DNA from: Quisquiliibacterium transsilvanicum
Lineage (GTDB): Bacteria > Pseudomonadota > Gammaproteobacteria > Burkholderiales > Burkholderiaceae_E
Assembly: GCF_014202215.1 (NCBI RefSeq)
Contig: NZ_JACHGB010000006.1
Coordinates: 62,001 to 126,000 of the forward strand
DNA: 64,000 bases
Reading direction: 5' to 3'
The position numbers and the translations under genes were made by a program. Positions 3,030 to 60,188 of this stretch are shown here, piece by piece. The notes below the pieces were generated by a model. It made no database searches. It worked only from the letters and a program-made list of their open reading frames with translations, and was not told the DNA's origin. Numbering within the stretch: the stretch's first letter is position 1; each line of letters starts with the position of its first letter.

Positions 3030-4172
3030 ATGAAGCCGATGCTGCTTGCCCTTGCACTTGCGCTGACCACGCCGCTCCCCGCCGGCGCCGCCGACCCGGC
3101 CCCGAAGGAATTCGCCTTCAGCGCAGACGTTCGGCTGGGGTACTTCGCCCGGGAGCGCGAAGACCGTGACGGTGCCCGCAGCGACAGCGACGACTGGCGC
3201 ATCCGCATCCGCCCCGGCGCCCTCTGGCAGATCACCCCGGAACTCAGCGCCAAGGCCCGCGTCGCGGGACGCTATTCGACCGACGACAGCAACCGCAACC
3301 ACTCCAGGTTCTTCACCTCGATCCCCGCGAGCGACGGCCTGCGCTTCGGCGACTCCACCTTCGACGAGTTCTACCTGCGCTACAAACCAGGCGACAGCTG
3401 GGACGTCAGGGTGGGCCGCATGCAGACCAGTTTCGAGCTGGAGGGCGTGGCGAAGAAATCGCTCAGCCGCAACGATTCGCCCAACACCGACATCACCTGG
3501 ACCGACGGCATTCACGTCCGCTATGCCGACGCGGCCGGCTGGAACTACCACGCCATCCTCCAGAGAAGCGAGGACGAGGGCCCCACCACCGTGCGGCGCA
3601 GCCCGCTGGCGTTCACCAGGTCGGCAAGCCACCTCACCTATTACGCCGGCATGGAGAAGAAGGATCCGAAGGGGCGCATCCTTCAGCTGGGCTGGGACCT
3701 CACCTACATCCCGGACGCGCTGCGCGTGGACGGCAGCGCCACCGGCCGGATCGACGACCATCTCGGCATCACCGGTCGACTGGCACTGCAATGGCCGATG
3801 GCCGGCAACATGCGCTTCGTCTGGGCAGGCGAAGCGGGCTTCGCGCCCGACACGCCGACCAAGGCTGCGTTGCGCCTGCCGGGTTCCGGCGATGCCAGCG
3901 GGCTTGCCTTCCAGACCTCGGTCAACCTGGTCGATTTCGCCCCGGGCCACAGCGTGGGCCTGGTCTACGGCCAGGCTGGCGGCGGCTGGCTACTCTCGCC
4001 CGACTTCGGCAACAATCAGGAACTGCTGGAGCTGCGCTACCAGTGGCGGCTGTCCGCAGCTCAGTCGATCGAGGCGCGCATTCGGACCCGGCGCGACCTG
4101 GAACAGCTGATGGACACGTCGCAACGGCGCGTGGACGATGACATCTACGTCCGGTACACGCATCGCTTCTGA
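3030..4172 (+). CDS. Outer-membrane beta-barrel, porin-like
   Basis: The start at 3030 gives a clear Sec signal peptide (positively charged head, LLALALALTTPLPAGAA, cleavage near residue 21) and follows a GGGAGA ribosome site. The mature part of about 360 residues alternates polar and hydrophobic residues, is rich in aromatic, Asp and Arg residues (segments such as DEFYLRYKPG and DVRVGRMQ) and ends with Phe in the sequence YVRYTHRF, the usual signal for BAM-dependent assembly. The RVGRMQTSFE segment resembles porins of the phosphate-selective or alginate-export type, but I cannot assign a substrate. It follows the holin-like gene by 14 bases, so the two may be co-transcribed. Confidence 0.8.
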   Translation: MKPMLLALALALTTPLPAGAADPAPKEFAFSADVRLGYFAREREDRDGARSDSDDWRIRIRPGALWQITPELSAKARVAGRYSTDDSNRNHSRFFTSIPASDGLRFGDSTFDEFYLRYKPGDSWDVRVGRMQTSFELEGVAKKSLSRNDSPNTDITWTDGIHVRYADAAGWNYHAILQRSEDEGPTTVRRSPLAFTRSASHLTYYAGMEKKDPKGRILQLGWDLTYIPDALRVDGSATGRIDDHLGITGRLALQWPMAGNMRFVWAGEAGFAPDTPTKAALRLPGSGDASGLAFQTSVNLVDFAPGHSVGLVYGQAGGGWLLSPDFGNNQELLELRYQWRLSAAQSIEARIRTRRDLEQLMDTSQRRVDDDIYVRYTHRF

Positions 4173-4192
4173 CCTTCCGATCAGCTGCCTGC

Positions 4193-4807
4193 ATGGCTTC
4201 CGATTCGCCTGACCGCATTCCGCTCTTCCCGCTGTCACGGGGCGTATTCCCAGACGGAATGCTGCAGCTCAACATCTTCGAGGTGCGCTACCTGGACCTG
4301 ATCCGGCGCTGCCACCGCGAAGGCACCCCATTCGGCGTGGCCTGGCTGGCCGAGGGCCGGGAGGTGCAGGTGCCCGGTGAGATCCCGCGGCTGCACCCCT
4401 GGGGCTGCCAGGTGCTGGTGCGCGAACTGGAGGCCTTGCAGCCGGCGCTCTTTCAGGTGCGCTGCCAGGGCACTACTCGCTTTGCGCTCGATGCGCACGA
4501 AGCCGGACCGCTCGGCGTATGGCAGGGGCGCGTGCGCCACTTCCCCGCTGACCCTGAGGTCCCGATCCCCGACGATCTGAAGCACCTGGCCGACCCGCTC
4601 GGCAGGCTGATCGCCGACGCCAGTTGGCGGGGGACCACGGACCGCCTCCCGCTCTACCAGCCCTTCCGGCTCGACGACTGCGGCTGGGTGGCCAACCGCC
4701 TGGCCGAGCTCATTCCGCTCGACGCCGAGGACGCCCAGCGCCTGCTGGGCGAGGGCGATCCGCTCGCGAGGTTGCGCCTGATTGCGGAGATGCTGGGCGA
4801 CCGATAG
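4193..4807 (+). CDS. Stand-alone LON substrate-binding-domain protein
   Basis: The 204-residue protein consists of the Lon N-terminal (PUA-like) domain: the start IPLFPLSRGVFPDGMLQLNIFEVRY is typical of the family (split here as IPLFPLSRGVFPDG and MLQLNIFEVRY). The AAA+ ATPase and Ser-Lys protease domains of Lon are absent, so no proteolysis is expected. Such proteins are common in Betaproteobacteria and are assumed to bind protein substrates, without proof. It lies 20 bases after the barrel gene on the same strand. An 8-bp inverted repeat follows the stop. Confidence 0.87.
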   Translation: MASDSPDRIPLFPLSRGVFPDGMLQLNIFEVRYLDLIRRCHREGTPFGVAWLAEGREVQVPGEIPRLHPWGCQVLVRELEALQPALFQVRCQGTTRFALDAHEAGPLGVWQGRVRHFPADPEVPIPDDLKHLADPLGRLIADASWRGTTDRLPLYQPFRLDDCGWVANRLAELIPLDAEDAQRLLGEGDPLARLRLIAEMLGDR

Positions 4808-4812
4808 CAGGC

Positions 4813-4838
4813 CGTTGAAGACGTGACTGCCTTCAACG
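4813..4838 (+). terminator. Stem-loop after the LON-domain gene
   Basis: CGTTGAAG at 4813-4820 and CTTCAACG at 4831-4838 form a perfect 8-bp inverted repeat with a 10-base loop, directly after the stop. There is no T-tract, so it may be a weak or Rho-assisted terminator or an mRNA-end stabiliser. The remaining sequence to 5019 holds no gene that I can support. Confidence 0.4.
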
Positions 4839-4932
4839 AATCGGATGCCCCCGGCGACAGCCATCTCGTGCGTCGAGGCGCCCGCCTTCCGCAATGTGCC
4901 AAACGCGCGGGAGAGCCTCTCAGGCAGCCGGA

Positions 4933-4938
4933 TATACT
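4933..4938 (+). promoter_or_regulatory. Candidate -10 box before the Bug-protein gene
   Basis: TATACT matches the sigma-70 -10 consensus in 5 of 6 positions and lies about 80 bases before the ATG at 5020. No good -35 hexamer is seen 16-18 bases upstream, so this is only a candidate. Confidence 0.3.
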
Positions 4939-5019
4939 CGCCCGACTTCCGCCGGCCACCATCGGCTGGCATGGCGGGAACGCCGCGCGCGGCGCCAACC
5001 CCCTACGGAGACATTCGCC

Positions 5020-6051
5020 ATGCCTGAGCACGATCACATCGACCAGCCGGGTCTCACGACCTCGGCGCAACCGGACTCCGCCCGCCGGCGTCAGCTGATC
5101 GGACTGGCGGCCGGCTCCGCGCTGCTGGCCGGCTCGCTGACGCGCCCGGCGCGCGCGCAGACCTATCCTGCGCGGCCGATCAGCCTGATCGTGCCGTTTG
5201 GCCCCGGCGCCTCCACCGACAACCAGTTCCGCGCGCTCGCGCAGCTCGCCTCGAAGGAACTCGGCCAGAACATCGTCGTCACCAACAAGCCCGGCGTCAA
5301 CGGCACGCTAGGGCCCTCGACGATGGCGCAGACCAGCCCGCCCGACGGCTATTCGCTGTCGGTGATCCCCTCGACGCTGTTCCGCATCCCGCACCTGCAG
5401 CGCGTCAGCTGGGACCCGTTGCGCGACTTCAGCTACGTGATCGGGCTCACCACCTACACCTTCGCCGTGGCGGTGCGCGCCGACGCCCCCTGGAAGACGC
5501 TGGCGGACCTGATCGCAGACGCCAAGGCGAACCCCGAAAAGATCACCTACGGCACCTCGGGCCGCGGGGGCACCGGCCACATCGCGATGGAACGCCTGAG
5601 CCGCCTGGCCGGCTTCAAGATGAACCTGGTGCCGTTCAAGGGAGCCTCGGAGTTCATGCCCGCGCTGGTCGGCGGCCACATCGACGTGGTGGCGGATGCC
5701 GGCTGGGGAACGCTCGCCTCGGCGGGCCGCGTGCGCCTGCTGACGGTGATGACGCCGCAGCGGCTACCCTCGTTCCCGGACGTGCCCACGCTGAAAGAGC
5801 AGGGCCACGACCTCACCGCGATGTCGATGCTGGGCATCGGCGGCCCGAAGGGCATGGATCCGGCGGTGGTGAAAGTCCTGCACGACGCCTTCCGCAAGGC
5901 TTCCAGGGATCCGGCGTTCCAGCGCGTGCTGTTCGCCGACAACCAGCCGGAGATCTACATGGACAGCGAGGCCTTCAGGAAATACGCGGCCGAGCAGTAC
6001 GAGATCGACCGCAAGGCGGTGCAGGAGCTGGGTCTGGGCCCGACCGGCTAG
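5020..6051 (+). CDS. Bug-family (tripartite tricarboxylate) solute-binding protein
   Basis: The ATG at 5020 follows ACGGAGAC at 5005-5012. The 343-residue product has a twin-arginine-like leader (RRRQLIGLAAGSALLAGS, cleavage near ARAQ) and then the Bug fold: YPARPISLIVPFGPGASTD at the mature N-terminus, the VTNKPGVNGTLG segment and the C-terminal PAVVKVLHDAFRKA region. Bug proteins are periplasmic binders of carboxylates, amino acids or related small acids and are greatly expanded in Burkholderiales; most are orphans without transporter genes nearby, as here. The ligand cannot be predicted. Three hairpins and a strong terminator follow the gene. Confidence 0.92.
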   Translation: MPEHDHIDQPGLTTSAQPDSARRRQLIGLAAGSALLAGSLTRPARAQTYPARPISLIVPFGPGASTDNQFRALAQLASKELGQNIVVTNKPGVNGTLGPSTMAQTSPPDGYSLSVIPSTLFRIPHLQRVSWDPLRDFSYVIGLTTYTFAVAVRADAPWKTLADLIADAKANPEKITYGTSGRGGTGHIAMERLSRLAGFKMNLVPFKGASEFMPALVGGHIDVVADAGWGTLASAGRVRLLTVMTPQRLPSFPDVPTLKEQGHDLTAMSMLGIGGPKGMDPAVVKVLHDAFRKASRDPAFQRVLFADNQPEIYMDSEAFRKYAAEQYEIDRKAVQELGLGPTG

Positions 6052-6053
6052 GG

Positions 6054-6099
6054 CCTCGCCCACACGGCGAGGGCCGCCGACCGGCCTGCAGGCCGGTCG
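6054..6099. repeat. Two hairpins after the Bug-protein gene, one a perfect 22-bp palindrome
   Basis: CCTCGCC at 6054-6060 pairs with GGCGAGG at 6066-6072. Immediately after it, positions 6078-6099 form a perfect 22-bp palindrome with 11-base half-sites centred on TGCA. A terminator hairpin follows about 50 bases later. Such stems could protect the mRNA end; the 22-bp palindrome could also bind a dimeric protein. Confidence 0.5.
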
Positions 6100-6145
6100 C
6101 TTCGAGCCCCCCGCGCACAGCGCGCAGGCGCTAGCCGTCGCCAAG

Positions 6146-6172
6146 AAAAAAGCCCGCTCGCGCGGGCTTTTC
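6146..6172. terminator. Rho-independent terminator, usable from both sides
   Basis: AAAAGCCCGC and GCGGGCTTTT form a GC-rich stem around a short TCGC-type loop, with A-runs on the left and T-runs on the right. It can end the Bug-gene transcript from the left and the tRNA-Thr transcript from the right. Confidence 0.85.
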
Positions 6173-6175
6173 CCT

Positions 6176-6251
6176 TGGTGCCGGCTGAGGGGCTCGAACC
6201 CCCGACCTTCGGTTTACAAAACCGCTGCTCTACCAGCTGAGCTAAGCCGGC
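6176..6251 (-). tRNA. tRNA-Thr (anticodon UGU)
   Basis: Read on the minus strand, a 76-base cloverleaf starts with GCCGGCT and ends with AGCCGGC-A-CCA, CCA being encoded. The D-arm GCTCAGCTGGTAGAGC, the anticodon loop TTTGTAA (anticodon TGT at positions 34-36) and the T-loop TTCGAGC are all in place. One G-A mismatch is seen at the top of the anticodon stem. It lies between the sspB stop and the shared terminator. Confidence 0.95.
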
Positions 6252-6260
6252 AATCCTGAA

Positions 6261-6797
6261 CTACTTTACGCGGGTGAGCCTGGGGCGCTGACCAGGCGGC
6301 GATGGCGGGGGCTCCGAGGGCCCGGGCGCGGCCTCCGTGCCGGCGTCGGCAGCGGCGGGCGGCTCGGGCGCTCGCGGAGCGCCAACCAGTACCGGCCCCC
6401 GACCGAGCGCGGGACGCGCGGCCGCGGGCTCAGGCGAATCCGGCGCCGGCGACACGACGGCCCCGTCACCCTCGTCGGCGATCTCCAACTGCACCTCGAA
6501 TGCCATGCCCTGGCCGGTCTCGGCGGCATAGACCGCGGAGACGTTCTCGACCGGTATCGAGATCTGGCGCGCAACGCGATTGAAGCGCGCCTCGAATTCG
6601 ATCAGGTCGTTGCCCATCCGCAAGCGGTTGCAGGCTTCGGACGACACGTTGAGCACGATCTCGCCGTCGCGCACGAACTCGAGCGGCACGATGGTGTTCT
6701 GGTCCACCGTCACCGCGATGTAGGGCCGGTAGCCGTTGTCGACGCACCACTCGTGGATCGCACGAATCAGGTAGGGCTTGGTGGAAGTCTCGGACAT
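6261..6797 (-). CDS. sspB: ClpXP specificity-enhancing adaptor SspB
   Basis: The 178-residue protein has the SspB core in residues 1-115 (KPYLIRAIHEWCVDNG, TIVPLEFV, GEIVLNVS, FEARFNRVARQISIPVENVSAVYA split over that range). A Pro/Ala/Gly-rich linker follows, and the tail RPRLTRVK is the short motif by which SspB docks on the ClpX N-domain. SspB binds ssrA-tagged proteins from stalled ribosomes and hands them to ClpXP in the cytoplasm. It follows sspA with a five-base gap, the same order as in many Gram-negatives. Length is close to that of other proteobacterial SspB proteins. Confidence 0.95.
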   Translation of the reverse strand: MSETSTKPYLIRAIHEWCVDNGYRPYIAVTVDQNTIVPLEFVRDGEIVLNVSSEACNRLRMGNDLIEFEARFNRVARQISIPVENVSAVYAAETGQGMAFEVQLEIADEGDGAVVSPAPDSPEPAAARPALGRGPVLVGAPRAPEPPAAADAGTEAAPGPSEPPPSPPGQRPRLTRVK

Positions 6798-51484: not shown

Positions 51485-51754
51485 TCATCGGTACACCTCG
51501 CGGCGATTGCCGATCCTCACGACAAGGATGCGCAAGGCGCCGTCCTCGATGCTGGCGATGATTCGATAGTCGCCGACACGGTATTTCCAGAACACCCCGA
51601 GGCGCGATCCCTTGAGGGTTTCGCCGATGCTTCGAGGATCATCCAGCGCAGCCAATCGGTCACGCAGGAAAGCCAGGATCCGCCTGGCATGCTGAGGGTC
51701 GATCCTGCCCAGTTCGCGCTCGATGGCCGGGTCGAGCTCAATCCTCCATGCCAT
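51485..51754 (-). CDS. RelE/ParE-family toxin
   Basis: The 89-residue protein has the RelE pattern: LDPAIERELGRIDPQHARRILAFL helix pair (part: ERELGRIDPQHARRILAFL), SRLGVFWKYRVGDYRIIASIED and a C-terminal VRIGNRREVYR strand with basic residues and Tyr. RelE-type toxins cut mRNA on the ribosome; ParE relatives poison gyrase. The start overlaps the antitoxin frame by 17 bases, the usual coupling. Confidence 0.9.
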   Translation of the reverse strand: MAWRIELDPAIERELGRIDPQHARRILAFLRDRLAALDDPRSIGETLKGSRLGVFWKYRVGDYRIIASIEDGALRILVVRIGNRREVYR

Positions 51755-52648: not shown

Positions 52649-52862
52649 GGTCGCCTTCTTGCCGGATCGGTCCAGCTCACAGCGAGGCTCACTGGCTGCA
52701 CCCGGCGCATGTTGCTAGAGTTGACGCAGCCAGGATCGGCTTGCCCATCGCCAACCGGTGGCTTCTCGGTCCACGCCGTGAACCGGCAGGAACGTCAAAC
52801 GATGATACATGTCAGGGGACACAGCCTTTGAACCCGATGGCACTCACACTCGAGACCCACGA
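52649..52862. promoter_or_regulatory. Gap between the LysE exporter and hsdR
   Basis: This 214-base gap separates divergent genes. It contains TTGACG at 52721-52726 but no matching -10 at the right distance. Near the 3' end an in-frame ATG at 52809 would add 18 residues to HsdR. I see no further gene. Confidence 0.3.
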
Positions 52863-55643
52863 ATGACGCCGGAAGCCGCGGCACGGCAACAGATCGACCA
52901 GAAGCTCACGCAGGCCGGCTGGGTCGTGCAGGACCTGAAGGCGCTGAATCCGTCGGCAGGCATGGGCGTGGCCGTGCGCGAGTACCCCACGGACACCGGG
53001 CCTGCCGACTACGTGCTGTTCGTGAACCGCAATGCGGTGGGGGTGATCGAGGCCAAGAAGGACGCAGCGGGCGAGAACCTCACCGACGTCGAACGCCAGA
53101 CCGAGCGCTACGCCGCTGCCGGCCTGAAGTGGCGCAAGGAGCAGACGCCGCTGCGCTTCCTGTTCGAGGCCACCGGCCAGATCATCCGCTTCACCGACAG
53201 CGCTGACCCGGTCCCGCGGTCGCGTGAGGTCTTCCATTTCTTCCGGCCGGAAACGCTGGCCGCCTGGGCCGCGCAGCCCGACACCCTGCGCGGGCGCCTC
53301 GGCACGCGGATGCCCGCGCTGCCCGTGGAGAACCTGCGCGACTGCCAGGTGAGCGCCGTCACGGGGCTGGAGAAGTCGCTGGCGCAGAACAAGCCCCGCG
53401 CGCTGATCCACATGGCCACCGGGGCAGGCAAGACTTTCACCGCCATCACGGCGGTGTACCGCCTGCTGAAGTTCGGCCAGGCTCGCCGCATCCTTTTCCT
53501 GGTGGACACCCGCAACCTGGGCAAGCAGGCGCACCAGGAATTCGCCGCCTACACGCCGCCGGACGACGCGCGCAAGTTCACCGAGCTCTACAACGTGCAG
53601 CGCCTGGCCTCCTCGACGATCGACCCGCATTCGCAGGTTTGCATCAGCACCATCCAGCGCATGTACTCCATCCTGAGCGGGGAGCCCATCGACGAGTCCG
53701 CGGAGGACGTGTCCCTGAACGAAATCCGTCAGGCCGCGGGGCAGCAGAAACTCGTCCGCTACAACCCGGCCGTGCCGGTGGAGACCTTCGATTTCATCGT
53801 CATCGACGAATGCCACCGCAGCATCTACAACCTGTGGAAACAGGTGCTCGACTACTTCGATGCCTTCCTGATCGGCCTGACCGCCACGCCGGACAAGCGC
53901 ACATTCGGCTTCTTCAGCGAGAACATCGTGGCCGAGTACAGCTACGAGCAGTCGGTGGCCGACGGCGTCAACGTCGGCTATGACGTCTACGAGATCGTCA
54001 CCGAGGTCACCCAACGGGGCGCCGAAGTCAAGGCCAGGGAATGGGTAGACCATCGGGACCGCGCAACCCGCAAGAAGCGCTGGGCGGAAACCGAGGAAAA
54101 CGTCGATTACACCGGCAGGGAACTGGACCGCTCGGTGGTGAACCTCAGCCAGATCCGGCAGGTGATCCAGGCGATGAAGACCGCGGTGGAGACGAAGATC
54201 TTCCCGGCGCGCAAGGAAACGCCGAAGACGCTCATCTTCGCGAAGACCGACAGCCACGCGGACGACATCATCAACATCCTGCGCGAGGTCTACGGCCAGG
54301 GGAACGCCTTCTGCAAGAAGGTCACCTACCGCGCCGAGGAAGACCCCGACAGCGTGCTCGCGAGCTTCCGCAACGACTACAACCCGCGCATCGCGGTCAC
54401 CGTGGACATGATCGCCACCGGCACCGACGTCAAGCCCCTGGAGGTGCTGCTGTTCATGCGCGACGTGCGTTCGCGTGGCTACTACGAGCAGATGAAGGGC
54501 CGCGGCGTGCGCAGCCTGGATGCCGATGGCCTGCGACGGGTGAGCAACAGCGCGGAGGGCGCCAAGAGCCGCTTCGTGCTGATCGACGCGGTGGGCGTGG
54601 AGAAGTCGCTGAAGACCGAGAGCCGGCCGCTGGAGAAGAAGCCAGGCGTGCCGCTGAAGGACCTGCTGGTGGGCGTGGCCATCGGCAGCCGCGACGACGA
54701 CACGGTACTTTCGCTCGCCAGCCGGCTGGTGCGCCTGGACAAGCAGCTGGATGACAAGGCCAAGGCGCGTATCCAGGCAGCCGCGGCCGGCATCCCGCTC
54801 GGCGAGCTCGGCAAGGCCCTGATTGCCGCGGTGAACCCGGACGCCATCGTGCAGGCCGCCCTTGCCGCCGCCGGCGCCAAGGGCATCACCCGCTCCGAGG
54901 ACACACTGCTGCCCGAGGAGATCGAGGCCGCGCGCGCGCAACGGGTGGCCGCCGCGTGCGCGCCCTTCGACAAACCGGAGCTGCGCGACGCGATCGAGAA
55001 TGCGCGCCGCGAGCGCGAACAGCTGATCGACCACATCAACCTGGACACGGTCGTCGTCTCCGATTTTTCAGAGCAGGCCGATGCGCAGGCCCGGGCGGCG
55101 ACCCAGGGCTTTGCCGAGTACCTGCAACGGCACCGGGACGAGATCGCTGCGCTGGGCTTCTTCTACGAGCAGCCGTACCGGCGGCGCGCGCTCACCTTCG
55201 ACATGATCGACGAGCTTCACGAGCACCTGGCCCGGCCGCCCCTGATGCTCACCACCGAGCGGTTGTGGAACGCCTACGCCCGGGTGCAGGCGAGCCAGGT
55301 TAAGGGCACCGACCGCCGGCGCCAGCTGACCGACCTGGTGTCGCTGGTGCGCTTCGCGCTGGGCCTGGACGGCGAACTGAAGCCTTTTGCAGACGAAGTG
55401 GACAAGCGCTTCCAGACCTGGATCTTCCGGCACAACGCGCAGCGCGGCACCGCCTTCACGCCGGAGCAGACCGAATGGCTGCGGCTGATGAAGGACCATA
55501 TCGCCAGCAGCTGCAGCATCGGCCGCGACGACTTCGATCTCGCGGAGCTGGCCGACAGGGGCGGGCTGCAGCGCGCCTGGGGGCTATTCGGGAAGGAGCT
55601 GGATACGTTGATGGACGAGATGAATCGGGAGCTGGTGGCGTGA
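52863..55643 (+). CDS. hsdR: Type I restriction enzyme, motor/nuclease subunit HsdR
   Basis: The start MTPEAAARQQIDQKLTQAGW at 52863 fits the family N-terminus and gives 926 residues. An N-terminal nuclease site is visible (PADYVLF Asp49, VIEAKK Glu63-x-Lys65). The SF2 motor follows: Walker A MATGAGKT (184-191), DECH (315-318), LTATP (339-343), and motif VI in YYEQMKGRGVRSLD. The C-terminal region resembles the EcoEI-type HsdR domain that contacts the methylase. It translocates and cuts unmethylated DNA as part of R2M2S. The end overlaps hsdS (GTGA). Confidence 0.95.
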   Translation: MTPEAAARQQIDQKLTQAGWVVQDLKALNPSAGMGVAVREYPTDTGPADYVLFVNRNAVGVIEAKKDAAGENLTDVERQTERYAAAGLKWRKEQTPLRFLFEATGQIIRFTDSADPVPRSREVFHFFRPETLAAWAAQPDTLRGRLGTRMPALPVENLRDCQVSAVTGLEKSLAQNKPRALIHMATGAGKTFTAITAVYRLLKFGQARRILFLVDTRNLGKQAHQEFAAYTPPDDARKFTELYNVQRLASSTIDPHSQVCISTIQRMYSILSGEPIDESAEDVSLNEIRQAAGQQKLVRYNPAVPVETFDFIVIDECHRSIYNLWKQVLDYFDAFLIGLTATPDKRTFGFFSENIVAEYSYEQSVADGVNVGYDVYEIVTEVTQRGAEVKAREWVDHRDRATRKKRWAETEENVDYTGRELDRSVVNLSQIRQVIQAMKTAVETKIFPARKETPKTLIFAKTDSHADDIINILREVYGQGNAFCKKVTYRAEEDPDSVLASFRNDYNPRIAVTVDMIATGTDVKPLEVLLFMRDVRSRGYYEQMKGRGVRSLDADGLRRVSNSAEGAKSRFVLIDAVGVEKSLKTESRPLEKKPGVPLKDLLVGVAIGSRDDDTVLSLASRLVRLDKQLDDKAKARIQAAAAGIPLGELGKALIAAVNPDAIVQAALAAAGAKGITRSEDTLLPEEIEAARAQRVAAACAPFDKPELRDAIENARREREQLIDHINLDTVVVSDFSEQADAQARAATQGFAEYLQRHRDEIAALGFFYEQPYRRRALTFDMIDELHEHLARPPLMLTTERLWNAYARVQASQVKGTDRRRQLTDLVSLVRFALGLDGELKPFADEVDKRFQTWIFRHNAQRGTAFTPEQTEWLRLMKDHIASSCSIGRDDFDLAELADRGGLQRAWGLFGKELDTLMDEMNRELVA

Positions 55644-57145
55644 TCGACGGCCAAATTGCACCGCTGGCTTGCCTGGGAGAGCTGACTGACGAACCGGTGG
55701 ATCAGACGGGACCTACGAGGTCGTTCGTGTACATCGACATCAGTAGCATCGACAGGGACACGAAGCGGATCTTTGCCGCTAAGTCGATGGAGGCCCATCA
55801 AGCCCCAAGCAGGGCCAGGCAGGTTTTGAAGACGGGGGACGTTCTGGTTTCGATGACGCGCCCGAACCTGAACGCCGTTGCTGTTGTTCCAACCGAACTA
55901 GACGGCGCCATCGCCTCGACCGGCTTTCACGTACTTCGGTCACGCTGGCTGCGCCCACAGTACCTGTACCGGCTGGTGCAGACCCGTGACTTCATCGAAG
56001 CGATGACGGCGGCCGTCCAGGGCGCGCTCTATCCAGCGGTGCGGCCAAAGGATATCGATGCTTACCGATTGACCTTCCACACACCGAATCAGCAGGAGCG
56101 CATCGTCGACAAGCTCGAGGAACTGCTCTCCGACCTCGACGCCGGAGTCGCCGAACTCGATGCCGCGCGCAAGAAGCTGGAGCGTTATCGTCAGGCACTG
56201 CTGAAGGCCGCTGTGGAAGGGGCCCTGACCGCCGAGTGGCGCGCAGGGAACCCGCCGTCCGAGACCGGCGCCCAGCTCCTCCAGCGCATCCTCACCGAGC
56301 GTCGCGCTCGCTGGGAGGCGGGGCAACTTGCCAAGTTCGAGCAGCAGGGGAAGGCTCCGCCGAAGAACTGGAAGGACAAGTACGTCGAGCCGGCGAAGCC
56401 GGATGTCAGCGATCTGCCGATGCTTCCGGAGCAATGGGTATGGACCTCTCTGGGAGAGTGCTTTCAGGTCTTAGTGGGGGCCACCCCCAGCCGAAAGGAA
56501 ACGCGCTATTGGGGCGGACCGATTCCATGGGTCAGCTCAGGCGAAGTTCGATTCACCCGCATCAAAGGAACGCGAGAAACCATCACCCAGGCCGGTTTGG
56601 AGAACAGCAGCACTAGGATCAACCCCGCCGGAAGCGTTCTGCTCGGCATGATTGGTGAGGGGAAAACCCGCGGCCAGGTTGCCATCCTCGACATGCCGGC
56701 AGCCAACAATCAGAACTGCGCCGCCATTTGGGTCAGCGAGACCCCGGCACCTCCTGAGTACGTTTTCAGCTGGCTATGGTCGCAGTACGAGCAGACGCGG
56801 CGCGGAAGCAGCGGAAACAACCAACCGGCCTTGAACAAGTCCATAGTTGAGCGTGTCGTTATGCCTTTACCCCCGCTGGCCGAGATGCAGGAAATCGTTC
56901 GTCTCGTCGACCATGCACTGGATCAGATCGAGCGGCAGCATTCCGCGATCGATCACGCTCTTAGACACTCCGCCGCCCAACGCCAGAACATCCTCCGCGC
57001 CGCCTTCGCCGGCGAACTGGTCCCGCAAGACCCCGACGACGAACCTGCCAGCGTGCTGCTGGCGCGCATCCGCGCGCAGCGCGCGGCGCAGGCCGAGGAG
57101 AAGAAGCCGCGCCGGACGAAGGCCAGGAAAGCCGCCGATGCGTGA
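55640..57145 (+). CDS. hsdS: Type I specificity subunit HsdS
   Basis: The start GTG at 55640 overlaps the hsdR stop and gives 501 residues. Two target-recognition domains (about 5-145 and 260-410) are each followed by a conserved coiled coil: first NQQERIVDKLEELLSDLDAG through RYRQALLKAAVEGAL, then PPLAEMQEIVRLVDHALDQIE through NILRAAFAGELV. The recognition domains are less GC-rich than neighbours, as expected for exchanged modules. The sequence recognised cannot be predicted. The last codons overlap the next gene by eight bases. Confidence 0.93.
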   Translation: MIDGQIAPLACLGELTDEPVDQTGPTRSFVYIDISSIDRDTKRIFAAKSMEAHQAPSRARQVLKTGDVLVSMTRPNLNAVAVVPTELDGAIASTGFHVLRSRWLRPQYLYRLVQTRDFIEAMTAAVQGALYPAVRPKDIDAYRLTFHTPNQQERIVDKLEELLSDLDAGVAELDAARKKLERYRQALLKAAVEGALTAEWRAGNPPSETGAQLLQRILTERRARWEAGQLAKFEQQGKAPPKNWKDKYVEPAKPDVSDLPMLPEQWVWTSLGECFQVLVGATPSRKETRYWGGPIPWVSSGEVRFTRIKGTRETITQAGLENSSTRINPAGSVLLGMIGEGKTRGQVAILDMPAANNQNCAAIWVSETPAPPEYVFSWLWSQYEQTRRGSSGNNQPALNKSIVERVVMPLPPLAEMQEIVRLVDHALDQIERQHSAIDHALRHSAAQRQNILRAAFAGELVPQDPDDEPASVLLARIRAQRAAQAEEKKPRRTKARKAADA

Positions 57146-58592
57146 CGACGCCTACTGGCTCAGCCTCGTCCACGAGCTGCGTGCCTTGCCCGACGAAACC
57201 GGCTGGCTGGAGTTCAAGCGCAACAAGGGCGAGCCACAGGAGATCGGCGAGTACATCTCGGCGCTGGCCAACTCGGCCGCGCTGGAGGGCAAGGCGCATG
57301 CCTACCTGCTGTGGGGAATCGACGACGCCGGCCATGCGGTGGTCGGAACGGGCTTCGACCCCGCTCGACGAGTGGGCCAGGAGGAGCTGGAGAGCTGGCT
57401 GCTGCGCCAGCTTGCGCCGAAGATCGGGTTTCGCTTCGTGCGGGTCATGATCGAAGGCCTGCCGTTGGTGGTCCTGGAGATCGACCGCGCCTACCGTCAC
57501 CCGGTCCAGTTCGGCGGCGCGGAGTTCATCCGCGTCGGCTCCTACAAGAAGCGGTTGAAGGACTTCCCGGAGAAGGCGCGCGCCCTCTGGCGCGTCCTCG
57601 ACGCAATGCCCTTCGAGCTGCTGCCATGCGCCGAGAAGATCAGCGGCGACGAGGTCCTTCGCCTGCTCGACTACCCGGCGTACTTCGAGCTGCTGGACCG
57701 GCCGCTGCCGAGCGGACGGGACGGAACGCTGGACGCACTGGCCGCCGATCGCCTGATCGAGCCCATGGGCGGCGGGCACTGGCGCATCCTCAACCTGGGG
57801 GCGCTCCTGTTCGCCAGGCGCCTGGCCGACTTCAACCGCCTGCAGCGCAAGGCGGTGCGCGTGGTGGTGTACCAGGGCAAGGGCCGCGTACAGACCCTGC
57901 GCGAGCAGGAAGGCGGCCGCGGCTACGCCGCCGGCTTCGGCGGGCTGATCGAGTTCATCAACGGGCTGTTGCCGGTGAACGAGGTAATCGGGCAGGCGCT
58001 TCGCAAGTCGGTCCGGGTGTACCCGGAACTTGCGATCCGCGAACTTGTGGCAAACGCCCTCATCCATCAGGACTTCAGCATCACCGGCAGCGGGCCGATG
58101 GTGGAGATCTTCGATGACCGCATGGAGATCACCAACCCCGGTATTCCGCTGGTGGACACGCAGCGCCTGCTGGATAGCCCGCCGCGTTCTCGAAACGAGC
58201 ACCTGGCCTCGCTGATGCGCCGGATCGGCGTCTGCGAGGAGCGCGGCAGCGGCGTGGACAAGGTGGTGTTCCAGACCGAGCTCTATCAGCTGCCTGCGCC
58301 GCTGTTCGAGGTCGTGGGCGACTCGACACGCAGCACACTGTTCGCGCCGCAACCGCTGACGCGCATGGACAAGGACGACCGCATACGGGCCGTCTACCTG
58401 CATGCCTGCCTGCGCTACGTCCAGCGGGAGCACATGACGAACACCTCGCTGCGCGAGCGTTTCGGGATCGACGTGAAGAACAGCGCCACTGCATCGCGCC
58501 TGCTCCGGGAGGCCCTGGCCGCAGGCTCGGTTCGCCTGCAGGACCCGGAAGCGCCGCCCAAGCTCAGGCGCTACGTGCCGTCCTGGGCGTGA
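57138..58592 (+). CDS. AlbA_2 (Schlafen-type) plus GHKL-ATPase, winged-helix protein embedded in the hsd locus
   Basis: The 484-residue protein starts at ATG 57138, overlapping hsdS by eight bases. Residues 20-130 form an AlbA_2 domain (GWLEFKRNKGE, AYLLWGIDDAGHAVVG, FIRVGSYKKRL). Residues 295-380 look like an HATPase_c_4 module: RELVANALIHQD (Asn box), EIFDDRMEITNPG and EERGSGVDKV. A winged-helix-like end (residues 415-470, SLRERFGIDVKNSATASRLL) follows. Such proteins are often annotated as RecG-like or transcriptional regulators but have no helicase motifs. Position implies a role in the restriction system, as regulator or extra effector; this is inference. Confidence 0.85.
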   Translation: MRDDAYWLSLVHELRALPDETGWLEFKRNKGEPQEIGEYISALANSAALEGKAHAYLLWGIDDAGHAVVGTGFDPARRVGQEELESWLLRQLAPKIGFRFVRVMIEGLPLVVLEIDRAYRHPVQFGGAEFIRVGSYKKRLKDFPEKARALWRVLDAMPFELLPCAEKISGDEVLRLLDYPAYFELLDRPLPSGRDGTLDALAADRLIEPMGGGHWRILNLGALLFARRLADFNRLQRKAVRVVVYQGKGRVQTLREQEGGRGYAAGFGGLIEFINGLLPVNEVIGQALRKSVRVYPELAIRELVANALIHQDFSITGSGPMVEIFDDRMEITNPGIPLVDTQRLLDSPPRSRNEHLASLMRRIGVCEERGSGVDKVVFQTELYQLPAPLFEVVGDSTRSTLFAPQPLTRMDKDDRIRAVYLHACLRYVQREHMTNTSLRERFGIDVKNSATASRLLREALAAGSVRLQDPEAPPKLRRYVPSWA

Positions 58593-58603
58593 TTTGCTTG
58601 ACA

Positions 58604-58704
58604 GGTACTTGATGGAAACATCCGCGAGCAGCCGCGGAGAACAGAAACTCTCATCCAATCAACAGCTTGCAGGTCATCAGGTACTTGACGGGTACTTGAT
58701 GACC
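58604..58704 (+). promoter_or_regulatory. Three GGTACTTGA(T/C)G iterons and an inverted repeat before hsdM
   Basis: GGTACTTGATG lies at 58604-58614 and 58691-58701, and GGTACTTGACG at 58680-58690, the last two in perfect tandem. The tandem pair is enclosed by GGTCATCA (58672-58679) and TGATGACC (58697-58704). This 135-base gap is the only intergenic space of the hsd locus, so it is the likely control point of the methylase gene. No good promoter pair was found. Confidence 0.6.
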
Positions 58705-58727
58705 GAGCGCCCGGACACCAAACCCCG

Positions 58728-60188
58728 ATGAACACCTCGACCCTCATCCAGAAAGTCTGGAACTTCTGCCACACGCTGCGTGACGACGGCGTGGGCTATG
58801 GCGACTACCTGGAACAACTCACCTACCTGCTGTTCCTGAAGATGGCCGACGAGTACGCGCAGGAGCCCTACAACCGGGACACCCGCATCCCCGCCGAACA
58901 CGACTGGGCCAGCCTGCGCAGCAAGGTCGGCGAACCGCTGGAGGCCCAGTACCTGGCAACGCTGCATGCCCTCGGGAAGCAGACGGGCATGCTGGGCGCC
59001 ATCTTCTTCAAGGCGCAGAACAAGATCCAGGACCCCGCCAAGCTCTCGCGCCTGGTGCAGATGATCGACGAGCAGAGCTGGGTGGGCATGGACGCCGACA
59101 CCAAGGGCGACCTCTACGAAGGCCTGCTGCAGAAGAATGCCGAGGACACCAAGAGCGGCGCCGGCCAGTACTTCACTCCGCGGCCGCTGATCCGGGCAAT
59201 GGTCGAATGCCTGCGCCCCGAACCGGGCAAGTCAATTGCCGACCCGGCGTGCGGCACCGGGGGCTTCTTCCTCGGCGCCTACCAGTGGCTCACGCGCCCC
59301 GGCGCCAGCCTGAACAAGGCGCAGAAGGCCTTCCTGCGCAACCAGGCCTTCGTCGGCAACGAGATCGTCGCCAATACGCGCCGCATGTGCCTGATGAACC
59401 TGTTCCTGCACAACATCGGCGAACTGGACGGGGAGCCCGCGGTCGAGCGCTCGGACGCGCTGATCGCGGAGCCTAGGCACAAGGTGGATTACGTGCTGGC
59501 CAACCCGCCCTTCGGCAAGAAGAGCAGCATGACCATCACCAACGAGGAGGGCGAGGAAGACCGCGACGCGCTCACCTACGAGCGCCAGGACTTCTGGGAG
59601 ACCACGTCGAACAAGCAGCTCAACTTCCTGCAGCACATCGTGAGCATGCTGAAGGCGGACGGCAAGGCCGCGGTGGTGCTGCCCGACAACGTGCTGTTCG
59701 AGGGCGGCGCCGGCGCGAAGATCCGCCGCAAGCTGCTGGAGACCTGCGACGTGCACACCATCCTGCGCCTGCCCACGGGCATCTTCTACGCGCAGGGGGT
59801 AAAGGCCAACGTGGTGTTCTTCGACAATGCACCCCGGGACGGCCGGATCCACACGAAGGGCGTCTGGTTCTACGACCTGCGCACCAACCGGCACTTCACG
59901 CTGAAGACGCGGCCGCTGCGCTTCGACGACCTGCAGAATTTCATCAGCTGCTACAACCCGGCGAACCGCCACGAGCGTCAGGAGACCGAACGGTTCAGGT
60001 ACTACCCGTACGACGAACTGATCGCGCGCGACAAGGCCAGCCTCGACGTCTTCTGGCTGAAGGACGACAGCCTGGACAACCTCGACGACCTGCCGCCGCC
60101 CGACGTTCTGCAGCAGGAGATCATCGAGCACCTGGAGGCGGCGCTGGCGTCGTTTCGAGACGTGGCCGCTGCACTGCCGAAGACATAG
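58728..60188 (+). CDS. hsdM: Type I DNA methyltransferase subunit HsdM
   Basis: The 486-residue N6-adenine methylase has an N-terminal helical HsdM_N domain (about 1-135), the SAM motif DPACGTGGF (172-180) and the catalytic NPPF (259-262). The GQYFTPRPLIRAMVE segment is typical of type I M subunits. With two HsdM and one HsdS it methylates the recognition site. It is last in the locus, with no ribosome site before the ATG, and is separated from the others by the iterated element. Confidence 0.96.
   Translation: MNTSTLIQKVWNFCHTLRDDGVGYGDYLEQLTYLLFLKMADEYAQEPYNRDTRIPAEHDWASLRSKVGEPLEAQYLATLHALGKQTGMLGAIFFKAQNKIQDPAKLSRLVQMIDEQSWVGMDADTKGDLYEGLLQKNAEDTKSGAGQYFTPRPLIRAMVECLRPEPGKSIADPACGTGGFFLGAYQWLTRPGASLNKAQKAFLRNQAFVGNEIVANTRRMCLMNLFLHNIGELDGEPAVERSDALIAEPRHKVDYVLANPPFGKKSSMTITNEEGEEDRDALTYERQDFWETTSNKQLNFLQHIVSMLKADGKAAVVLPDNVLFEGGAGAKIRRKLLETCDVHTILRLPTGIFYAQGVKANVVFFDNAPRDGRIHTKGVWFYDLRTNRHFTLKTRPLRFDDLQNFISCYNPANRHERQETERFRYYPYDELIARDKASLDVFWLKDDSLDNLDDLPPPDVLQQEIIEHLEAALASFRDVAAALPKT

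Follow-up and report, generated by a model that had tools for sequence, protein, structure and literature searches.

C proteins are small helix-turn-helix (HTH) proteins, whereas PrrC and RloC are anticodon nucleases embedded in hsd loci as extra genes and guarded by the restriction complex. In the sections of PMC12707154 available to us, C proteins are described as dedicated in-locus regulators with repeated boxes of their own, which serve mostly type II systems and act at their own promoter; related C proteins can make systems mutually exclusive, and in Mycoplasma gallisepticum one C-family gene is located upstream of the hsd genes of a type I system (PMC12707154). RptR, according to the accessible part of its description, is a small homodimer that represses a defence island with a type I system and binds direct repeats at the promoter, in front of the whole island (9-bp repeats with a TAGCTA core; PMC12255303), and the C protein of the type II Kpn2I system provides, in the accessible text, a precedent for a controller that blocks an elongating polymerase (PMC6237814). 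Here, we analysed a restriction locus of Quisquiliibacterium transsilvanicum in a stretch of 64,000 nucleotides (the window), in which a gene that we call X is followed by two repeat boxes. On comparison of sequences, we estimate with a probability of roughly 0.7 that the product of X binds DNA and is devoted to controlling the restriction-modification locus, probably as a repressor that forms a loop or as a roadblock.

The four genes of the locus lie on the + strand in the order hsdR-hsdS-X-hsdM and, with HsdR, HsdS and HsdM all present, form a type I restriction-modification locus. X and hsdM are separated by a gap of 135 bases, and the repeats within this gap are the most telling feature of the locus. 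The features on which the argument turns are as follows:

57138-58592, + strand: gene X, 484 amino acids (AlbA_2, HATPase_c_4, presumed winged helix)
58353-58589, + strand: presumed winged-helix DNA-binding end of X, residues 406-484, proposed from box covariation
58482-58484, + strand: codon of X residue 449, which covaries with the boxes
58593-58615, + strand: box 1, TTTGC-TTGAC-AGGTAC-TTGAT-GG, beginning at the base after the X stop codon
58657-58669, + strand: IHF-like site AATCAACAGCTTG, matching the consensus WATCAANNNNTTR at 9/9 fixed positions
58680-58701, + strand: box 2, GGTAC-TTGAC-GGGTAC-TTGAT-G, ending 26 bases before the hsdM ATG
58728-60188, + strand: hsdM, methylation subunit (Pfam N6_Mtase/HsdM_N), the gene behind the box element

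The boxes are direct repeats (TTGAYN6TTGAY) with an 11-bp period, 87 bp apart. The strict pattern TTGAY-N6-TTGAY matches the window at 58598 and 58685 only, and a narrower pattern finds box 1 and box 2 as its sole matches in the 4.26-Mb host genome, in which X is present as a single copy. Relatives of X were collected by a scan of species genomes, which gave at least 563 of them, and the best 80 loci were fetched (designated L001 and so on); linkage counts are thus those of the closest relatives. Of 79 loci, 72 carry the strict pattern within 600 bp downstream of X, without exception on the strand of X (the count leaves out L068, with 1 base downstream, and the window's own copy), as compared with 2/80 loci in the 600 bp upstream and 16 matches elsewhere in 1.12 Mb. 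It was absent behind X in L003, L006 (which has 137 bases there), L014, L047, L062, L063 and L077, among which L003, L014 and L063 do match a looser pattern. Box spacing was 87–90 bp in 31 of the 48 loci measured, and the half-sites within a locus agreed in 69/76 (shuffled mean 21.7). A loose box pattern occurred in 136/300 genomes, and a reversed control pattern was frequent too, so that the loose pattern is uninformative by itself. One locus (L078:3670-4030) carries two complete two-box units in tandem behind X, with boxes at +11, +99, +247 and +335. That the element might instead encode a structured RNA, for example a repeat-made RNA antitoxin, was considered since direct repeats adjoin a gene for a Schlafen-type protein; however, no consensus pair was found in 22 aligned elements and the single Rfam match was at chance level (17.6 bits vs gathering 71), on which grounds an RNA element was rejected as a candidate for the gap. 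The 11-bp period, together with covariation with the presumed recognition helix, also points to duplex DNA and makes an RNA extremely improbable.

This covariation was explored in 79 aligned X proteins, including the window's copy (L081), 74 of which have boxes by the looser pattern. Mutual information between the base before TTGA and the X columns was highest for residue 449 (z 17.0, the runner-up reaching 12.6), and residues 429–478 hold 13 of the 15 best columns; for the base two before TTGA, the peaks were at residues 472 and 474. Lys449 was accompanied by A or G in 21/21 cases and no Lys was found with C or T (0/53), all 74 loci thus being in agreement. On a tree of residues 1–405, residue 449 and the box base both change 12 times, and the supported independent pairs agree in six out of six (p = 0.031; 12 pairs if support is ignored). 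A set of 37 further loci yielded boxes in 25 (no box was recognised in L087, L114 and nine distant loci, and L117 has an in-frame stop), and the rule fitted 24 of these 25 (Lys with purine, 2/2; no Lys with pyrimidine, 22/23). Two pairs of relatives differ precisely at this end. The X proteins of L010 and L022 are 96% identical over residues 1–430 and 63% over the last 54 residues, while their DNA is 93% identical up to X codon 424, does not align through the C-terminal end and the boxes, and is 91% identical on the hsdR side; the compared stretches upstream of X are also unaligned. Judging from these alignments, C-terminal domain and boxes have been replaced together. L045 and L061 share 102/105 protein positions, then 34/54. 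Because residue 449 and the boxes covary, we assign X a DNA-binding role, and X most likely binds the boxes behind its own gene via its presumed winged helix.

The cassette replacement in L010/L022, the presence of X with several restriction types and its relatives in a satellite phage beside an integrase and in phage Musica could also be explained if X and its boxes were a mobile or recombining module, with the boxes as ends or recombination sites. This is very unlikely, given that the boxes lie on one side of X only, that Pfam finds no recombinase domain in X and that, in at least 28 loci, X shares 4 bp with the hsdS gene ahead of it.

Between the boxes, the IHF consensus scored above expectation. 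In the 45 spacers used (of 48), the mean best match was 7.42 of 9, vs 6.48 in single-base shuffles (sd 0.08, highest of 50 = 6.64), and the score exceeded that of 100/100 permuted consensuses. The best matches lay at offset 43–45 on the + strand in 16 spacers, at offset 31–33 on the other strand in 9, and elsewhere in 20.

The position of the boxes relative to the next gene was recorded in 73 loci with boxes and a following open reading frame (ORF), the longest ORF being chosen; ten restriction-gene starts lie no more than 3 bases from the box end, since the ORFs run into the box, some genes are misassigned (L034, L064), and L002, L042 and L077 were assigned manually to the restriction class. 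When the next gene was of restriction kind, it lay on the X strand in 35/37 loci and started at most 74 bases from box 2 in 29/37, including 12 with a start 9–24 bases away; next genes of other kind lay on the X strand in 20/36. With the restriction-gene start so near box 2, the transcript must begin at or before box 2, and bound X should therefore hinder transcription. In near relatives, the X slot may hold another gene: L104 has a DUF3800 gene (4138–4926) between hsdS and hsdM and lacks X (best match in that genome 34% over part), L155 a longer AlbA_2/HATPase_c_4 protein with one box still before hsdM, and L156 a HATPase_c_4 protein. The persistence of both boxes before hsdM in L104, where X is missing, suggests a role of the element for the gene downstream. 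The sole terminator-like stem of L104 is on the strand opposite the hsd genes; it was dropped as a sign of a separate promoter because it faces the other strand, so that read-through into hsdM is possible and a separate promoter is not proven. Box-like matches in L105 (inside an unrelated ORF, without X) and in L106 and L107 (no X or hsd match) are probably due to chance.

In the mechanism that we propose, the presumed C-terminal winged helix of X would bind both tandem-repeat boxes directly behind its own gene, as the covariation indicates, and IHF or a similar bending protein in the 71-bp spacer would join the two X-bound boxes. The resulting X-IHF-X loop would repress the promoter of the next gene or block a passing polymerase, and the gene behind X (hsdM here, hsdR in most relatives) would be made only once X lets go. 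The AlbA_2 and GHKL-like ATPase parts could act as the sensor, and X would in this way adjust how much is made from the genes preceding it relative to the one that follows. The earlier note on this DNA, made from its letters, had supposed that X could govern restriction, which the overlap of X with hsdS and the likely control element before hsdM make a good guess, with control itself still inferred. Its further suggestion that hsdM is controlled on its own holds insofar as the element lies before hsdM, but the element goes with any next gene, be it R, M, S, Res or Mod.

As the main rival reading, X might instead be an activator like the type II C proteins (a precedent in the accessible sections of PMC12707154), which must build up first and would thereby delay full restriction in a newly entered cell. 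The commonest arrangement, M-S-X-boxes-R, fits this, as X is grouped there with the genes that protect the cell, while hsdR comes after the boxes. However, box 2 often ends within a few dozen bases of the next start in the counts given above (29/37 within 74, 12 at 9–24), which suits a repressor or roadblock better, and the delayed gene in the window would be hsdM. We thus consider an activator unlikely, though well short of negligible.

Pfam identified two domains in X, SLFN_AlbA_2 (PF04326; residues 20–140, E 3e-17, 63.6 bits vs gathering 25.3) and HATPase_c_4 (PF13749; residues 317–400, E 1e-22, 80.3 bits vs gathering 26), and residues E302, N306, H310, D312, G335, G370 and G372, just before or within the latter, were invariant in 79/79 aligned X:

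58086-58337, + strand: HATPase_c_4 (GHKL-like) region of X, residues 317-400 (Pfam)

The AlbA_2 domain and GHKL-like ATP site that the earlier note had assigned to X are thereby confirmed, while the presumed winged-helix end had no Pfam match and matched no HTH family. A profile of the last 84 residues gave two PDB matches at E up to 5, TcaR (0.44) and AdcR (0.86), both weak; we take both proteins to be MarR-type winged-helix regulators. On the presumed helix-turn-helix reading, residue 449 would open the recognition helix and residues 472–476 would lie in the wing. No known defence family accommodated X: PADLOC gave two weak partial matches only, to argonaute-named models, NCBIfam gave none, and this possibility was set aside.

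The N-terminal domain bears on another explanation, in which X would be a second-line effector, an AlbA_2 RNase or other toxin guarded by the restriction complex, with the boxes tuning its own level or activity. E20, E25 and K27 are invariant in all 78 X having these positions, the spacing of E20, E25 and residue 63 presumably resembles the SLFN13 acidic triad, and orphan X copies retain boxes. However, the E..EFK motif is shared by AlbA_2 proteins in general, 24/79 have lost the third acidic residue (residue 63 is D in 55/79 and N in 24/79), the boxes are not in front of X, and when the next gene is a restriction gene they are close to the start of that gene. An effector is accordingly improbable, and for the second line of defence proposed in the earlier note we found nothing in X beyond the Schlafen-type domain.

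The remaining genes of the locus and one neighbour are:

52809-55643, + strand: hsdR, restriction subunit of EcoEI_R_C type (Pfam ResIII/EcoEI_R_C)
55640-57145, + strand: hsdS, specificity subunit (Pfam Methylase_S; GTG start)
51485-51754, - strand: ParE-type toxin gene near the hsd locus

The hsdR stop and hsdS start share 4 bp (GTGA), and hsdS and X share 8 bp. Coordinates and Pfam agree with the R-S-X-M layout, the 4-bp and 8-bp overlaps and the 135-bp gap already described in the earlier note, whose span (57138-60188) takes in X and hsdM only and which left the gap repeats unmentioned.

Consistently with the linkage to restriction genes that had been anticipated there, a restriction-modification gene was found within 4.5 kb of X in 61 of the 80 closest relatives, and in 38 of the 49 loci with at least 4.5 kb on both sides (tblastn, E 1e-8, with a restriction-protein panel drawn from the same loci). 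X relatives span several phyla and one archaeal metagenome-assembled genome. R-S-X-M did not prove to be the usual order: the commonest is M-S-X-R (exactly this set in 24 loci, besides others in which genes are added or the contig is cut), and R-S-X-M is rare, being found in L001 and in L006, where the contig is cut. Other arrangements were R-X-M-S (L027), M-X-S-R (L049), the type III orders Mod-X-Res (L042) and Res-X-Mod (L045, L061), R-M-X-S on an Aliarcobacter plasmid and, on another plasmid, a methyltransferase, a hypothetical gene, X, a protein with weak helicase matches and a GIY-YIG nuclease; X also precedes McrB-like and DUF2357 genes in L002 and an SNF2-PLD protein in L077. X thus lies often, not always, between two parts of a restriction system. 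HsdM was matched at E 1e-150 in 27/300 genomes, and the window's own is the sole one of these in which a close X immediately precedes hsdM; in L137, a distant X ends 1.1 kb upstream of hsdM (within the upstream sequence of at most 1.5 kb). At E 1e-60, the X family was present in 21/300 genomes from the window's order and 14/398 from its phylum (the two draws share three genomes), and no genome of either draw had two X copies at this threshold.

Several loci carry further genes of interest. In L051, a second, different AlbA_2/HATPase_c_4 protein with a Fic-like_C end (4491-6556) and a DUF4062 protein with a weak TIR match lie between hsdM and hsdS, X being in the same locus, so that two Schlafen-type proteins are found in one operon. 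Also between hsdM and hsdS, with X nearby, are a GmrSD-type gene in L026 and, by tblastn, in L030, and Fic proteins in L025 and L058. In Burkholderia ambifaria (L039:2204-6328), X with one full box immediately precedes the gene for a protein of 1374 aa, which has a NACHT match slightly under the cut-off and no PADLOC match. X relatives also occur in Streptococcus satellite phage Javan328 and in phage Musica; that of Javan328 (L112:3956-5422) lies directly before an integrase gene, with one weak box-like match only, and from this placement X relatives may control integration genes.

Several observations weigh against X being a restriction controller that acts through its boxes. As to binding, 8 of the 15 best columns for the base two before TTGA fall outside the C-terminus; a C-terminus tree built without residues 449 and 455 leaves 7 changes and 2 supported pairs (p = 0.5), so that joint inheritance explains part of the association. 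The further loci include an exception (L119, Arg449 with G), 9 of the 12 relatives at 36–40% identity have no recognisable box, and the DNA of L045 and L061 aligns throughout at 85% despite their differing protein ends. As to control, no sigma-70-type promoter was found in the gap, in the window or in L104, and our favouring of a repressor over an activator is argued from geometry alone. As to restriction, X comes after a complete M, S, R set in L011, L036 and L053, and is there not between two system parts; in L004 and L052 it is antisense to hsdR, S and M, with boxes before no gene. By the panel, 19/80 loci have no restriction gene; several of these have short flanks and L033 has an MmeI-like gene next to X, but L005, L009 and L060 show ordinary metabolic neighbours of X. 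On visual inspection, L039 and L114 appear degenerate. Two boxes were kept in 12/18 unlinked loci (200 bp downstream), as compared with 43/60 linked ones, so that no clear dependence of the element on restriction genes emerges. With the phage-borne relatives also in view, X may serve functions outside restriction.

Like the C proteins, X would be a dedicated in-locus regulator with repeated boxes of its own, binding being deduced from covariation. In contrast to them, it has 484 amino acids, AlbA_2 and HATPase_c_4 domains and no HTH family match; its boxes sit behind its gene rather than at its own promoter (upstream pattern 2/80 vs downstream 72/79, the X promoter being unmapped), with an IHF-like site between them, and it occurs with type I, type III and other systems. 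The Kpn2I C protein belongs to another protein family than X, and the domains of PrrC and RloC also differ from those of X, which, unlike them, has a self-linked DNA site. With RptR, X shares the role of a dedicated regulator associated with type I restriction systems, but the X boxes are TTGAY repeats behind X, unlike the RptR site (TAGCTA before hsd loci was not searched for), and the accessible text on RptR contains none of the words Schlafen, AlbA, HATPase, IHF or winged (PMC12255303). Since X lacks two C-protein features and the RptR site, we file it under neither, although it may work like them. In domain composition, X corresponds to the COG2865-type AlbA_2/HATPase_c_4 proteins, both Pfam domains being above gathering. 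In the available parts of the respective sources, COG2865 is labelled a replication or repair protein from RecG similarity (PMC7641849) and the AlbA_2 Schlafen domain is called DNA-binding (PMC6299218), and the portion of the literature on COG2865-type proteins accessible to us turned up no DNA site or restriction control. The Javan328 relative is annotated as a 'putative transcriptional regulator containing an HTH domain and an uncharacterized domain shared with the mammalian ...'. No description of an X-box system emerged from the accessible full-text literature, outside which most subscription papers and bioRxiv preprints lie.

The pairing of such a gene with repeats is seen time and again in restriction loci from diverse bacteria. 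Tentatively, and with somewhat more doubt than confidence, X could represent an undescribed, cross-phylum class of restriction controllers, in which an ATP-dependent AlbA_2/GHKL sensor would be combined with an exchangeable winged-helix/box cassette and an IHF-bridged loop before one gene of type I, type III or other systems. Few descriptions seem to exist of transcription control dedicated to type I and type III restriction, the accessible parts of these sources offering one C-family case in a type I locus (PMC12707154) and RptR (PMC12255303). If the class is real, several such systems would be able to coexist in one cell when their box classes differ, and would interfere with each other when these are alike. 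The tie of a residue in a DNA-binding domain to a base in its linked site makes the switching of such systems directly testable, along with their entry into new cells and the reason for which two closely similar loci differ at precisely this cassette. It would also assign a definite function to the Schlafen-related proteins of bacteria that appear in public records as 'ATP-binding protein'.

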